A stretch of 64,000 bases of DNA from Burkholderia sp. BCC0322 (lineage in GTDB: Bacteria > Pseudomonadota > Gammaproteobacteria > Burkholderiales > Burkholderiaceae): the NCBI RefSeq assembly GCF_902833045.1, contig NZ_CADFDU010000011.1, positions 174,260 through 238,259 on the forward strand. The letters run 5' to 3'. Below are positions 10,172 through 16,203 of the stretch, one piece after another. Within the stretch, counting starts at the first letter, position 1; each line of letters opens with the position of its first letter. The notes under the pieces are model-generated. The model made no database searches and was not told where the DNA came from. It saw only the letters and a program-made list of their open reading frames with translations. The position numbers and the translations under genes are program-made.

Positions 10172-13100
10172 TTACTTCGCGACGACGACCGGAATCCCCT
10201 TCAGCATCCCCGCGCCCTTCATCTCGTCGAGCGCGTGCTGCACGGCCGCGCTCGTCGCCGCTTCGATGCCGAGCTGCAACGCGAGCTTGCGCTCCGCGCG
10301 CTTCACGCCGGCCAGGTTGCGCACCTTCACGTGCCCGAAGCCGCGCACGCGGGCGTGCAGGTCGGCCAGTTGCGCGACCTGCGCCGCATTGCCGGCGGTC
10401 GTCGCGGCGAGCGCACGCGTGAGCGTCGTCTCGTAGTCGTCGGCGAGCGCGCGCTCCATCTTGCGCTCGACGGTGCGGCCGAACGGATCGAGCCACGTGC
10501 CGCGCAGGCTGCGCACGCGCGCCAGCATGCCGAACACCGGCCACATCCACTGGCCGAACTCGCGCTTCTTCGGCGCGCTGCCGTCGCGGCCGGCCTTCGC
10601 GACCGTCGGCGGCGCCAGGTTGAACTTCACGCGATAAGCCTGCCCCGGCACGCCTTCGAATTGCGCTTCGAGCGCCGTGCGGAACGCGTCGTCCGTGTAA
10701 AGCCGCGCGACTTCGTATTCGTCCTTCACCGCGAGCAGCCGGTAGAACGTCGTCGCGACCGCGCGCGTCAGCGCATCGTCGCCCTTCGCGCGCGCCGCGC
10801 TCACGAGGGCACGGTAGCGTTCGACATAGCGTGCGCCGCCGTATGCATCGAGACGCGCCTCGCGATCGGCGATCAGTTCGGCAAGCGTTTCCGGTGCGGC
10901 GTGCGTGGCCACCGCGTGACGCGCGTTCCACAACGCATCGAGGCCCGCCGCGTCGCCGGCCGCCATCCGGCCGATCGAGAACGCGAGCTTGTTCATCGGC
11001 ACCGCGACGTTGTTCAGCTCGATCGCGCGCATCATCGCGGCGAGCGACACCGGCACGAGGCCGAGCTGCCACGCATAGCCGAGCATCAGGATGTTCGCGC
11101 CGATCGAATCGCCGAGGAACTTCGCGGCGAGCGCTTGCGCGTCGCAGCTCGACAGGTAACCATCGCCGGCCGCGTGACGCATCTTCTCGAGCAGCGCATC
11201 CGCATGCAGATTCGCGTCGGGGTTCTGCACGAACGACGCGTTCGGGATCCGGTGCGTGTTGACGACGATCCGCGAACGCTCGTGACGCACCGTCTGCAGC
11301 GCCTCGGCGCTCGCGCCGACCACCATGTCGCACGCGAGCAGCACGTCGGCCTGCTGCGTGTCGATACGCACCTGGTTCAGCCACCGGTCGCTCGATGCGA
11401 TCCGCACGAACGACAGCACCGAGCCGCCCTTCTGCGCGAAGCCCATGAAGTCGAGCACCGACGCGCTCTTGCCTTCGAGGTGCGCGGCCATGCTGATCAG
11501 CGCGCCGACCGTCACGACGCCCGTGCCGCCGACGCCCGTCACGAGCATGTCGAACGGCGCCGCGTCGAGATGCGTGGCCGGCACCGGCAGCGCGTCGACG
11601 CGCGCGGCGAGCGCGGCTTCGTCGAACGCGGCACCGGCGGCCTTCTTCAGCGCCGCGCCTTCGACCGTCACGAAGCTCGGGCAGAAGCCGTTCACGCACG
11701 AATAATCCTTGTTGCACGACGACTGGTCGATGCGGCGCTTGCGGCCGAGCGGCGTCTCCAGCGGCTCGACCGACAGGCAGTTCGACTGCACGCCGCAATC
11801 GCCGCAGCCTTCGCACACCGCGTCGTTGATGAACAGGCGCTTGTCCGGGTCGGGGAATTCGCCCTTCTTGCGGCGGCGGCGCTTCTCGGCCGCGCAGGTC
11901 TGGTCGTAGATCAGCACGGTGACGCCCGGCGTCTCGCGCAGCTCGCGCTGCACCGTGTCGAGCTCGCTGCGGTGATGGAACGTCGTGCCCTTCGGGAACA
12001 GCCCGTGATGACCGTCGTACTTCTCCGGTTCGTCGGACACGACGACGAAGCGCGACACGCCTTCCGCCTCGACCTGCCGCGCGATCTGCGGCACCGAGAT
12101 GCTGCCGTCGACCGGCTGGCCGCCCGTCATCGCGACCGCATCGTTGTAGAGGATCTTGTACGTGATGTTCGCTTTCGCGGCCACGGCCTGGCGGATCGCG
12201 AGGATGCCGGAGTGGAAGTAGGTGCCGTCGCCGAGGTTCTGGAACACGTGCTTCGTGTTGGTGAACATCGCGTGCGCGGCCCAGTCGACGCCCTCGCCGC
12301 CCATCTGGATCAGCCCGGTCGTGTCGCGCTCCATCCACGACGCCATGAAGTGGCAGCCGATGCCGGCCTGCGCGATCGAGCCTTCCGGCACCTTCGTCGA
12401 CGTGTTGTGCGGGCAGCCCGAGCAGAAGTACGGCGTGCGCTTCACCGCGTCCGCCTCGTTCGACAGGATCTGCGGCGCGACGAGATCGACGACGCGTTCG
12501 CGGCGGTCGAGCGCCGGCTTGTGGCGCGCAAGCCAGTCGGCGAACACCGGCAGGATGCGCGACGGGCGCAGCTCGCCGAGCTCGGACAGCAGGCAGGCGC
12601 CGGCGGCGTCGTGCTTGCCGAGCACGCGCGGGCGCGCGCCTTCCGCGCGGTTGTACAGGTAGTCCTTGATCTGCTGCTCGATGACCGGGCCTTTCTCCTC
12701 GATCACGAGCACTTCGGCGAGCCCGTCGACGAACGTCTCGATGCGCGTCATCTCGAGCGGGTACGACAGGCCGACCTTGTAGATCCGCACGCCGGCCGCG
12801 TCGAGGTCGGCCACCGTCAGGTCGAGGCGACGCAGCGCCTCCATCAGGTCGAGGTGCGCCTTGCCGCAGGTCACGATGCCGACGTTCGCCTGCGCGCTCG
12901 GCGCGATCCACTTGTCGATGCTGTTGGTGCGCGCGAAATGACGCACCGCGTCGAGCTTCGCGGCGAGGCGCGCCTCGATCGTGAGGCTCGGCAGGTCGGG
13001 CCAGCGATTGTGCAGGCCGCCCGCCGGCGGCGTGTAGCCTTCCGGCGCCGGCCACCGCGTCTGCAATGCGTCGAGGTCGACGGTCGAGCCCGATTCGACC

Positions 13101-13744
13101 GTTTCGGAAATCGCCTTGAAACCGACCCACGCGCCCGAGTAGCGCGACAGCGCCCAGCCGTACAGCCCGAATTCGAGCATGTCGGCGATGTTCGCCGGGT
13201 TCACGACCGGCATGTGCCACGCGATCATCGCGAAGTCGCTCTGGTGCGGCATCGACGACGACACGCAGCCGTGGTCGTCGCCCGCGACGACGAGCACGCC
13301 GCCATGCGGCGACGAACCGTACGCGTTGCCGTGCTTCAGCGCGTCGCCCGCGCGATCGACACCGGGGCCCTTGCCGTACCACATCGCATACACGCCCTCG
13401 ACCGTGCGCTCGGGATCGGCCTCGACCCGCTGCGTGCCGAGCACGGCCGTGCCGCCGAGTTCCTCGTTGATCGCGGGCAGGAAGCGCACGCCGCCGGCGT
13501 CGAGCAGTTTCTTCGCCTTCCACAGCTGCTGGTCGACCATGCCGAGCGGCGAACCGCGATAGCCGCTGACGAAGCCGGCCGTGTCGAGCCCCTGTTCGGC
13601 GTCGACCGTGCGCTGCATCAGCAGCAGGCGGACCAGCGCCTGCGTGCCGGTCAGGAAGATCCGGCCGCGCGTCGCGGTCAGGTTGTCGGTCAGGCGGTAG
13701 TCGGACAGGGCAGGCGTGCCGTCGACGGGCAAGCGGGCAGTCAT
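10172..13744 (-). CDS. Indolepyruvate ferredoxin oxidoreductase, fused alpha-beta-type protein
   Basis: A 1190-residue three-part enzyme of the proteobacterial indolepyruvate (2-ketoacid) ferredoxin oxidoreductase family, which decarboxylates aryl pyruvates to acyl-CoA using thiamine diphosphate and Fe-S clusters. The N-terminal two thirds hold the pyruvate-binding and TPP-binding domains (for example FCSGCPHNTSTKVPEGS and GIGCHFMASWM). A cysteine-rich ferredoxin-like segment follows (CEGCGDCGVQSNCLS, then SSCNKDYSCVNGFCPSF). After it comes the gamma-type domain starting at MLVTGVGGTGVVTVGALI. The C-terminal 200 residues (FGQWMWPVFGML, VKFNLAPP) are specific to this fused form. The start at 13744 was chosen as the first in-frame ATG with family-like sequence. 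It is a single gene, convergent with the antiporter. A very long opposite-strand open frame is a GC-skew shadow. Confidence 0.93.
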   Translation of the reverse strand: MTARLPVDGTPALSDYRLTDNLTATRGRIFLTGTQALVRLLLMQRTVDAEQGLDTAGFVSGYRGSPLGMVDQQLWKAKKLLDAGGVRFLPAINEELGGTAVLGTQRVEADPERTVEGVYAMWYGKGPGVDRAGDALKHGNAYGSSPHGGVLVVAGDDHGCVSSSMPHQSDFAMIAWHMPVVNPANIADMLEFGLYGWALSRYSGAWVGFKAISETVESGSTVDLDALQTRWPAPEGYTPPAGGLHNRWPDLPSLTIEARLAAKLDAVRHFARTNSIDKWIAPSAQANVGIVTCGKAHLDLMEALRRLDLTVADLDAAGVRIYKVGLSYPLEMTRIETFVDGLAEVLVIEEKGPVIEQQIKDYLYNRAEGARPRVLGKHDAAGACLLSELGELRPSRILPVFADWLARHKPALDRRERVVDLVAPQILSNEADAVKRTPYFCSGCPHNTSTKVPEGSIAQAGIGCHFMASWMERDTTGLIQMGGEGVDWAAHAMFTNTKHVFQNLGDGTYFHSGILAIRQAVAAKANITYKILYNDAVAMTGGQPVDGSISVPQIARQVEAEGVSRFVVVSDEPEKYDGHHGLFPKGTTFHHRSELDTVQRELRETPGVTVLIYDQTCAAEKRRRRKKGEFPDPDKRLFINDAVCEGCGDCGVQSNCLSVEPLETPLGRKRRIDQSSCNKDYSCVNGFCPSFVTVEGAALKKAAGAAFDEAALAARVDALPVPATHLDAAPFDMLVTGVGGTGVVTVGALISMAAHLEGKSASVLDFMGFAQKGGSVLSFVRIASSDRWLNQVRIDTQQADVLLACDMVVGASAEALQTVRHERSRIVVNTHRIPNASFVQNPDANLHADALLEKMRHAAGDGYLSSCDAQALAAKFLGDSIGANILMLGYAWQLGLVPVSLAAMMRAIELNNVAVPMNKLAFSIGRMAAGDAAGLDALWNARHAVATHAAPETLAELIADREARLDAYGGARYVERYRALVSAARAKGDDALTRAVATTFYRLLAVKDEYEVARLYTDDAFRTALEAQFEGVPGQAYRVKFNLAPPTVAKAGRDGSAPKKREFGQWMWPVFGMLARVRSLRGTWLDPFGRTVERKMERALADDYETTLTRALAATTAGNAAQVAQLADLHARVRGFGHVKVRNLAGVKRAERKLALQLGIEAATSAAVQHALDEMKGAGMLKGIPVVVAK

Positions 13745-14078: not shown

Positions 14079-15600
14079 CCTCACCGATGAAATGCACAGC
14101 ATTGCGATTGGTCGGTGGGGCGGGATGTCCACAATGCCGCGCCCCTCGGCCGACCGGGCTCGCGCGCTCACCGTTCGATTGCACAGCGTTTCGAGTGGCG
14201 TGGAGGCCGGGATGTCCACACCGTTGACGGAATGCATCCCGCGCTTGCCTCGACGCTCACCGTTGAAATGCACAGCGCGGCGAGTGGGTTTGAACCGCGG
14301 ATATCCACATCGATGGGGACGTATTGCATCGATCCACGGCTTGCCTTCGGTGCTCGAATACTCAGGGCCGCGAGCGGGTTTGTCGGCCGGAAAGGCGTGC
14401 CGGAACACGCATGCCGGGCAATCGCCGGATCGCACTCACCGTTGAAACACGCGAGGTTGATCGTCCGGACAGGCGCGCGGGTACACGCATGCGCCACGAT
14501 CGCGGGCCCGCACTCACCGAGGAAATACGCCGGGACGCGAGTGAGTTCATCGGCCGGGCATACACGCCGGAACGCGCTTGCGGCACAATCGCGGGCTCGC
14601 GCTCACCATTGAAATACACAGGGCTTCGAGTGTCTGCGATAGCGGTTATCCACGCCCGATCCGGCATTGCCGTCCGGCCACTCGGGCACCCTCACCGTTG
14701 GAAACCACAGCCCTTCGAGTGCTTCCGCGCGCAGGATATCCACATGGATGAGCATCCGCCGAAGCGATGACGGACGCGCGCCGCGGAAGGTGCGGCAGGC
14801 CGGCAATTCAAGCTGGAAGCGGCTCATCGGCCGATCGGGCACGGACACTCACCGTCGAAATGCACAGTGTCGAGAGTCGTTTCCGTGGCCGGATATCCAC
14901 ACGGGGCCCGTGTGTTCGTCGTTCGCATGCTCGCGTGCCAGCCCGAGATACACGATGCGCCGGACGGCGCCGGCGGCCGAATGATCGCATCTTGGTGCGC
15001 TGAGCGCCGATCCCGTGTTCACGCTCGCCCTTGCATCGCGCAGCGCTTCGAATCGCTTGCGAACGCGGCGATGCGCAGCGAAATCTGCGTATTGCCGACC
15101 ACGCGCCCGTGCTCGCCGTTAAAATGCACGGCCTTTCGAGCGACAGCCGGAACCGGATCTCCCCGTCGCGGCACCCGCACGGTTGCGCCGCGCACGCTCG
15201 CGTTCGGCTAGAATGCGCGGCGCTTCGAACCACGGCAACGATCGGAAATCCTCGTCAGGAAAGGCGCATGGCCCGATCGGGCGCCAACCCTCACCACTGA
15301 ATTCCACAGCATTTCGCGTCGTTTCGCAGGCGAGTTGTCCACACCCTGCTTCATGCATTCCGTATCATCCGGTGCCCCTCACCGGTGAAATGCACAGGGC
15401 GCCGAGTCGTTTCGGCGTGAGGATATCCACAACCGATCGCGCGGCGCGACTTTCGTCTGGCCATCGCCACGAGCGGCTCACGCATCTGCCGGCGGCTATC
15501 GGGCAGTCACCGGAAAGCCCCGTCCAGACGGCCTCGGCGGCACCCTCACCGTTCAAATGCACAGCATTTCGAGTCGCCTCGATCGTGGGTTATCCACATC
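14079..15600. repeat. Degenerate tandem array of about 88-bp units with paired CACA nonamers (DnaA-box-like)
   Basis: At least 16 units, nine of them clear. Each begins CTCACCGTTG, continues with nonamer 1 (AAATGCACA), a GCNTTTCGAGTCG-like core, and ends with nonamer 2 ([AT]T[AG]TCCACA). Nonamer-1/nonamer-2 starts: 14090/14125, 14177/14212, 14266/14301, 14612/14646, 14701/14736, 14858/14893, 15300/15335, 15388/15423, 15555/15590. In eight of nine the gap between nonamers is exactly 26 nt (25 in the fourth). Degenerate units keep the register near 14356, 14445, 14523, 14946, 15034, 15122 and 15211. Unit period is 87-90 bp except for one of 78 and intervals of 157 and 167. Nonamer 2 at 15590 is TTATCCACA, identical to a strong E. 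coli DnaA box. No coding capacity. Function unknown. Confidence 0.85.
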
Positions 15601-15645: not shown

Positions 15646-16203
15646 TTACGGGGCAATCGACCGCATGACCGCTGCCGGATTCCCGCCGACCAGCACGTTC
15701 GGCGGGACATCGCGCGTGACGACGGCCCCGGCCGCGACCACCGAGTTCTCGCCCACCGTCACACCGCCGACGATCGTCGCGCCGGCGCCGATCCACACGT
15801 TCCGTTCGATCACGATCGGCTTCGCGACGACGAAGTCGCGCCGCCGCGAAGGTTCGACGGGATGGCCGGACGTGATGAGGCTGACGTTCGGCCCGATCAT
15901 CGCGTCGTCGCCGATTTCGAGCCTGCCGAGATCGTAGAACGTGCAGTTCTGGTTGATGAACACATTGCGCCCGAGTTTCATGCCGGTGCCGCCCGTCGCA
16001 TGAAACGGCGGGATCAATACGAACGCGTCGTCCACCTGCGTGCCGATCAGTTCTCCGAACAATGCGCGAACCTCGGCGGCATCGTCGAACGTCAGGCGAT
16101 TGATCCGCGCGGCGATCGACATCGCCCGCTTGACCTCGGCCACCATCGCCGCAGATTCCGGCGTTCTTCTCGGAATGATCGTGGTGCGATCGTCGTTTGC
16201 CAT
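15646..16203 (-). CDS. Hexapeptide-repeat sugar O-acetyltransferase (maltose acetyltransferase-like)
   Basis: A 185-residue left-handed beta-helix acetyltransferase of the Maa/LacA/NodL type. The short N-terminal helical part (residues 15-60) is followed by hexapeptide repeats (MKLGRNVFINQNCTFYD, IGDDAMIGPNVSLITSGH, IVIERNVWIGAGATIVGG). His114 in TSGHPVEP is the expected catalytic residue, and DVPPNVLVGGNPA is the usual C-terminal CoA-binding turn. It transfers acetyl from acetyl-CoA to a sugar hydroxyl; the substrate cannot be told. Its stop lies 48 nt from the last repeat unit, and transcription runs into the array. A perfect 11-bp-arm palindrome lies 112 nt upstream of the start. Confidence 0.9.
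   Translation of the reverse strand: MANDDRTTIIPRRTPESAAMVAEVKRAMSIAARINRLTFDDAAEVRALFGELIGTQVDDAFVLIPPFHATGGTGMKLGRNVFINQNCTFYDLGRLEIGDDAMIGPNVSLITSGHPVEPSRRRDFVVAKPIVIERNVWIGAGATIVGGVTVGENSVVAAGAVVTRDVPPNVLVGGNPAAVMRSIAP

Follow-up and report, generated by a model that had tools for sequence, protein, structure and literature searches.

In Escherichia coli, datA forms an origin-distal, non-coding cluster of DnaA boxes on the primary chromosome at roughly 10% of the chromosome from oriC, and datA proper combines an IHF site between the boxes with DnaA-ATP hydrolysis. Bacillus subtilis has several DnaA-box clusters outside oriC, and we know of no fixed 57-bp unit or adjoining methylation sites in them. 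The array reported here resembles the clusters of B. subtilis in holding multiple DnaA boxes away from oriC, and resembles datA in being an origin-distal, non-coding cluster of such boxes on the primary chromosome. However, it differs from datA, to which it is likened by description and not by sequence, in consisting of tandem compound units with three further blocks.

Like the array, crtS of Vibrio cholerae lies on chromosome 1 and comes with methylation sites and a putative DnaA site, but it is one short site (70 bp per Du 2016) and not an array, and binding of a chromosome-2 initiator by the array is itself only a suggestion. The RctB titration locus of V. cholerae has dispersed initiator sites and is compared to datA in a review. 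Within Burkholderia, oric1 of B. cenocepacia has TTATCCACA boxes and TGCACAG 7-mers carrying CACAG (Du 2016 and a methylation paper of 2020), as in the array, but it is an origin region and not an array 320 kb away, and its CACA-ending boxes are mostly followed by G whereas the array boxes are not. The sources used, Du 2016 and the 2020 methylation paper among them, are PMC4948915, PMC7364216, PMC13342612 and PMC6090056. Among the Burkholderia and datA papers listed we recognised none on this array, but the second array described below may be shown in S1 Fig of Du 2016. The cluster rule given by Du 2016, three boxes within 100 bp, would miss boxes at a spacing of 88 bp.

Identification of a tandem array of multi-block units

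The window, that is the whole 64-kb stretch of DNA analysed, carries a non-coding tandem array of multi-block units at 14080-15598 on the plus strand. It lies between an indolepyruvate ferredoxin oxidoreductase family gene (iorAB fusion; 10172-13744, minus strand) and an acetyltransferase gene (15646-16203, minus strand; closest in NCBIfam to maltose O-acetyltransferase, with a score under the curated cut-off), which is where the initial annotation had placed it. The array is real and far above chance expectation. The motif WTRTCCACA occurs 8 times in the window, always inside the array, against 0.26 expected, which amounts to a DnaA-box cluster above chance outside oriC. The compound pattern CACAG-N22..26-WTRTCCACA was observed 8 times against 0.00 expected, with N=25 every time, so the gap between the two nonamers is 26. 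A 19-mer around box 1 and the pattern CTCACC-N9-CACAG-N5-CGAGT gave 10 and 12 matches, respectively, with at most 3 mismatches (0.01 and 0.75 expected), all of them in the array.

With CTC[AG]CC as the anchor we recognised 13 units, 10 with box 2 and 3 without it, along with a partial unit match at 14354-14391 in the region of a degenerate 78-bp repeat, which falls short of the 16 or more units initially counted. Anchor-to-anchor distances within the array are 78-89 or 157-179 bp and not uniform, and the unit itself spans about 57 bp. The proposed fixed gap of 26 nucleotides was borne out by all 8 exact pairs, and the box-2 offset is the same in 9 of the 10 window units with box 2, the remaining one (CTCACC at 14602) being one base shorter.

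All units lie on the plus strand. The leading unit at 14080-14133 (CTCACC at 14080, CACAG at 14095) and that at 14167-14220 both have ATGTCCACA as box 2 (14125-14133 and 14212-14220), and the unit at 14256-14309 has ATATCCACA (14301-14309). These are followed by degenerate units without box 2 at 14354-14558, with anchors at 14435 and 14513 and the partial match mentioned above, which are overlapped by a 78-bp TRF repeat at 14383-14530. The shorter unit at 14602-14654 has TTATCCACG (14646-14654), and the units at 14691-14744 and 14848-14901 have ATATCCACA (14736-14744 and 14893-14901). A degenerate unit at 15024-15062 (CTCGCC) is without box 2, and another at 15112-15165, with CTCGCC and CACGG, has ATCTCCCCG in this position (15157-15165). 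The array ends with units at 15290-15343 (TTGTCCACA, 15335-15343), 15378-15431 (ATATCCACA, 15423-15431) and 15545-15598, the box 2 of which (15590-15598) reads TTATCCACA, the E. coli consensus DnaA box, just as had been noted. A further match, L004, corresponds to 15731-15800 of the window, inside the acetyltransferase gene and outside the array.

A coding repeat is disfavoured by the box offset that is off by one base in one unit and by spacings that are not multiples of three; the array is covered only by overlapping ORFs on both strands, which also counts against it. A mobile repeat was likewise set aside, since in 8 complete genomes all listed matches with E<0.001 fall at the two array loci. 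No ParB site was found in the window with a pattern allowing at most 2 mismatches.

Anatomy of the unit and variants of its boxes

A consensus derived from 468 nhmmer matches in the window and the collected loci, some of them overlapping (L002, L011 and L003 were dropped as overlaps), reads CTCACCgTTgAAATnCACAGcgTTtCGAGTsG...GG[AT]T[AG]TCCACA. The unit contains four constrained blocks, namely CTCACC, CACAG (in box 1), CGAGT and the DnaA-box-like WTRTCCACA (box 2). Both boxes of the two-box unit first described were confirmed, but the constrained blocks number four and not two. Among 305 main-array units from 34 arrays, defined by CACAG and box 2, 293 have CTCACC at 15 bp ahead of CACAG. This conservation shows that not all sequence outside the boxes and TTCGAG varies freely, as had been supposed. 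Of 309 pairs at main-array loci, 262 have a distance of 31 between CACAG and the T.TCCACA core, 42 have 30 and 5 have another value, and when both arrays are considered, CACAG precedes the box by N25 (273) or N24 (68) in 341 of 347 units.

In the same 347 units, box 2 is ATATCCACA in 209, TTGTCCACA in 53, ATGTCCACA in 41, TTATCCACA in 28 and some other sequence in 16 (L017, which overlaps L055, was dropped from the counts of box variants, CTCACC register and G after the box). Most array boxes are therefore one- or two-base variants of TTATCCACA, and the commonest, ATATCCACA, departs from the E. coli consensus at one base. In nonamer 1 the invariant stretch is CACA with a G after it; this nonamer matches a DnaA box less well than nonamer 2 does.

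Distribution of the array

A sequence-only model matched 53 of 65 genomes of the genus at an E-value of 0.1, and 52 of the 65 contain 9-25 matches. The array is absent in 13, of which 12 have no match and one (G017) has a single weak match; dnaA was present in all six array-less genomes checked. With strict filters, 36 of 299 genomes sampled from the family matched at 1e-4, all from one of 25 genera, and no array was found in any of the 24 other sampled genera, so that it is known here from one genus only. Absence from close relatives had been named as a potential refutation, and the 52 genomes with multiple matches leave the idea standing.

Among the best 80 named iorAB loci of a longer list, the 10 with the array are all labelled Burkholderia. 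The 70 without it include Paraburkholderia, Caballeronia, Trinickia, Pandoraea, Mycetohabitans and some labelled Burkholderia; five of the 70 (L078, L101, L121, L132 and L141) have little or no upstream DNA. The iorAB gene adjoins the array in all 10 of these named array-bearing loci, and the acetyltransferase gene is present at 6 of them; of the remaining four, one is truncated by the end of its contig. A genus-wide search finds the array at the same locus across much of the genus, with units pointing both ways in several species.

Conservation of the blocks

We compared the blocks and spacers of the window with those of six relatives. For 8 units picked for clean exact boxes in the window, a choice which favours conservation, block differences amount to 4/216 each in L062, L063 and L001, 13/216 in L068, 30/198 in L064 and 32/200 in L066. 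The corresponding spacer differences are 41/215, 59/214, 42/215, 73/215, 78/195 and 71/191. In other words, the blocks diverge about 10-fold more slowly than the unit spacers in three of the six relatives and 2- to 6-fold more slowly in the other three, of which L064 and L066 align poorly and have units in other orientations. Five of the 13 units, in which an exact box 2 preceded by GG was not found, stayed outside the block classes. When all 13 anchors are used the contrasts are weaker, with differences in CTCACC ranging from 2/66 to 13/66 across relatives. In L001 the counts for the 13 anchors are 6/78 for CTCACC, 6/65 for CACAG, 10/65 for CGAGT and 3/90 for the DnaA box, against 19/117, 10/65 and 34/167 for the spacers and 137/853 between units. 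CGAGT is in this case no slower than the adjoining spacer (10/65 in both), whereas it is slower in the other five relatives. The constraint falls on blocks that look like binding sites, in agreement with the original suggestion of selection on protein-binding geometry.

Decay of a neutral tandem repeat would account for the degenerate units and varying copy number, for the units in both orientations in several species and for the CGAGT block of L001. However, the blocks diverge less than the spacers in all six relatives, and the array keeps iorAB as its neighbour while the other neighbour changes; we regard this explanation as very unlikely. We consider it more improbable still that the array is a transcribed structured RNA or a member of an sRNA family. 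A search of Rfam returned no family at threshold, and the sole weak match, to BTH_s19, scored 15.9 bits against a gathering score of 153. RNAalifold predicted 0 pairs on 23 units and hence no conserved fold, and RNA folding of eight strands gave z-scores between -1.70 and +1.06. Conservation following base pairing, which had been raised as a possible objection to protein binding, is thus not seen in these units, and the idea stands.

Position relative to dnaA and oriC1

The position could be measured in the 17 genomes in which a single contig of known length carries both the array and dnaA, and in all of them the main array is upstream of dnaA, by about 214-302 kb. The stretch just upstream of dnaA has a single TTATCCACA in each locus covering it. 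We therefore rejected it as the origin and sought oriC1 elsewhere, locating it near 82-85 kb in genome G001. In the 280 kb of this genome examined, the minimum of the cumulative GC skew lies 85 kb on the other side of dnaA, and there are two DnaA-box clusters, one at 82.1-82.5 kb that has an AT-rich block and one at 85.25-85.45 kb by a gene that looks to be of the MarR type. In six other species, the second box cluster and the local skew minimum of a 20-kb stretch are no more than about 400 bp apart. Du 2016 regards the exact chromosome-1 origin as uncertain and has as one candidate a cluster of DnaA boxes close to nucleotide 1 and the skew minimum. In the methylation paper BCAL0003 is given as a MarR regulator and BCAL0024 as gidA, and this listing fits our placement of oriC1 in G001, where gidA is at 109 kb.

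The main array of G001 is about 320 kb of 3.69 Mb away from the skew minimum and oriC1, its place relative to the origin having been proposed for study. The array itself was discarded as a candidate for oriC1 because of this distance from the skew minimum (as seen in 280 kb of G001) and because the AT-rich pattern of oriC1 has no match in the 64-kb window. Of 63 sliding windows across it, 54 have a negative skew; the skew rises slightly and locally at 12-15 kb, and the array does not coincide with a minimum.

Likeness to oriC1 and a second array

In seven species oriC1 contains TTATCCACA boxes and an AT-rich block of the form TTGTTAAC..GTATrTATAC. All seven also have a CACAG-N23-TTATCCAC pair in the orientation of the array; both CACAG and DnaA boxes are dense in oriC1, so this pairing could be partly due to chance. 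The oriC1 boxes are of the form TTATCCAC[AGT], often with G after CACA, whereas those of the array are mostly ATATCCACA without G. CTCACC is in register in oriC1 of G001 but not in the other six species. Weak R1 matches inside oriC1, with E-values of about 0.01-2, owe most of their score to the DnaA boxes. Tandem TCCACA pairs number 14 in G001, 5 in the two arrays and 9 scattered; a backward control pattern gave 10, indicating no excess in the total. Domain IV of DnaA from G001 aligns to that of E. coli DnaA (1j1v) with an E-value of 2.4e-30, and ARPRQ and GGRDHTTVLHA, which we take to be DNA-contact regions of this domain, are identical between the two.

A second, smaller group of units is present on the same chromosome in all 8 complete genomes searched. 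It lies about 12-47 kb from dnaA in 7 of them, and about 300 kb from it in G010, in which gidA and dnaA are also rearranged. Within about 5 kb of this second array, 6 of the 8 genomes have an origin-like element, consisting of TTATCCAC and a TTGTTAAC..ACTACGTATrTATAC block; the other two second-array stretches gave no match to this pattern. In each of the 7 species examined for it, oriC1 is marked by a close variant of the block. The elements, from six species, are at 6618 of L043, 6758 of L045, 18832 of L046, 7001 of L048 and 4899 of L051 on the minus strand and at 3206 of L049 on the plus strand. In G001 the element near the second array is about 50 kb from the skew minimum. Single weak matches to model positions 17-57 were also seen at G001:C2:979641-979681 (L057), G011:C2:973113, G040:C1:999314, G056:C1:976536 (L058) and G010:C1:2810862, in four of the five genomes about 960-980 kb from dnaA; these could be chance matches in a conserved gene.

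The CACAG methylation site

CACAG has been published as methylated at its fourth base in B. cenocepacia. In the oriC1 regions of seven species, 28 of 31 T.TCCACA have a G after them that completes such a site (boxes ending in CACG or CACT were not counted). The same is true of 1 of 307 main-array units, with 33 of 34 main arrays having no such G at all, and of 0 of 40 pairs in second-array stretches; as units are related by descent, these counts are not independent. The background frequency of G after TCCACA is 29/81 in 280 kb of G001, origin and second array included, and 2/11 in the window outside the array. The CACAG methylation site is nearly absent at box 2 of the array. Five of the 40 second-array-stretch pairs are minus-strand pairs at the origin-like element itself, and as these are without G, the element does not follow the oriC1 rule. 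A PF01555 methyltransferase gene (open frame of 692-786 aa; G001:C2:45489-46508 and counterparts) is found 48-79 kb from gidA in 25 of 25 genomes, whether or not they have the array, and its place and family suggest that it is BCAL3494.

Functional interpretation

The array is most likely a replication-control site. We give about an even chance to the more specific prediction, made from the sequence features described above, that box 2 binds DnaA and that the array is an origin-distal control site of the primary chromosome. Each unit would be a compound protein-binding module, with CTCACC, CACAG, CGAGT and WTRTCCACA at nearly fixed spacing and box 2 most likely as its DnaA-binding part. About ten such modules, roughly 320 kb from oriC1, would bind DnaA away from the origin; being doubled early in each replication round, the array would then titrate or inactivate DnaA after initiation in the manner of datA or the B. 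subtilis clusters, with the smaller array near the origin-like element acting closer in. Support for the DnaA titration or control site initially envisaged comes from the closeness of box 2 to the oriC1 boxes, the E. coli-like domain IV of DnaA and the second array near the origin-like element. Against it stand the preponderance of ATATCCACA, most boxes being off TTATCCACA by one or two bases, the lack of the array in 13 of 65 genomes of the genus and the block/spacer contrast of only 2- to 6-fold in three relatives. A plain DnaA titration site needs none of the three extra blocks, and as these are also constrained, DnaA alone does not explain the unit. CACAG, CGAGT and CTCACC would presumably have readers of their own, with methylation possibly playing a role. 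The G-less box 2 could mark a reader other than DnaA; to our knowledge, avoidance of G after the box is no part of DnaA specificity.

The four blocks at nearly fixed spacing, the near-complete avoidance of G after box 2 and the restriction to one genus would also suit a binding array for another regulator, or a nucleoid or segregation protein, reading CTCACC, CACAG, CGAGT and TCCACA, with the likeness to DnaA boxes being partly coincidental. This is unlikely in our estimate: it leaves the second array beside the origin-like element and the CACAG-box pair in oriC1 in need of separate explanations. A doubtful alternative of similar weight is a crtS-like inter-chromosome timer, in which a RepA-type chromosome-2 initiator would read CTCACC and DnaA would read box 2; passage of the chromosome-1 fork would double the array and thereby license or adjust chromosome-2 initiation. 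CTCACC is the right half of the chromosome-2 iteron CCCGAAAAnnCTCACC (Du 2016), and an outlying chromosome-2 site, CTCCCG[AT]ATTTCCTCACC, partly extends the match to the CTCACCGTTGA of the array. Moreover, Du 2016 calls a crtS-like link between chromosomes 1 and 2 worth exploring, and published Hi-C data have the Chr2 origin of B. cepacia contacting a large part of Chr1. However, the iteron half CCCGAAAA is absent upstream of CTCACC in the array, CTCACC is in register in only 16 of 40 second-array-stretch pairs, and six array-less genomes of the genus carry the same iteron (8-17 exact matches each). The six-base match was also drawn after the fact, and Du 2016 saw chromosome-2 foci double before those of chromosome 1 in some cells. 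The link of CTCACC to the chromosome-2 initiator is accordingly no stronger than suggestive. An elaboration of this timer, which we think improbable, would be a methylation-exempt, two-initiator Burkholderia counterpart of crtS built as an array. Its box 2, unlike most CACA-ending oriC1 boxes, could not be CACAG-methylated, and each unit would add a methylatable CACAG 25 bp before the box and the core of the chromosome-2 initiator iteron. At the fork speed of 33 kb/min published for B. cenocepacia, 320 kb take about ten minutes; replicated that long after chromosome-1 initiation, such an array would lower free DnaA and set chromosome-2 initiation. This proposal is weakened because the box of the origin-like element by the second array is also without a following G.

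The chromosome-2 iteron CCCGAAAANNCTCACC has 20 exact matches in G001, 19 of them on C3, which is taken as chromosome 2. The outlying CTCCCG[AT]ATTTCCTCACC sites, at 1894 of L183, 1839 of L184, 2141 of L185, 1966 of L186 and 1645 of L187, stand beside a standard iteron in five species and continue with GTTG (3), ATTG (1) or GTCA (1). Near ori2 of G001, at 1258-1457 of L187 on the minus strand, five CTCACCG sites that lack the CCCGAAAA half fall within about 200 bp, four of them at intervals of 62-66 bp, with some parallels in L183, L184 and L185. A unit-like match near ori2 of G001 (E-values of 0.0016 and 0.001) gets little weight, since the corresponding stretches of four other species show no likeness. 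On chromosome 2 of two species, roughly 140-150 kb from ori2, we observed a tandem run of about a dozen repeats resembling the chromosome-2 iteron, mostly 23 bp apart (L188 4269-4545 and L189 4323-4577); Du 2016 reports a second cluster of the chromosome-2 iteron 140 kb from the origin.

Conclusion

The synchrony of replication in bacteria with multiple chromosomes has been worked out in few lineages, and a survey of 2026 asks for timers in further ones. The array described here provides a concrete candidate that can be removed from the main chromosome and that makes clear predictions about DnaA, the chromosome-2 initiator and CACAG methylation. Present on the main chromosome of many Burkholderia species, it may help time the replication of their DNA.
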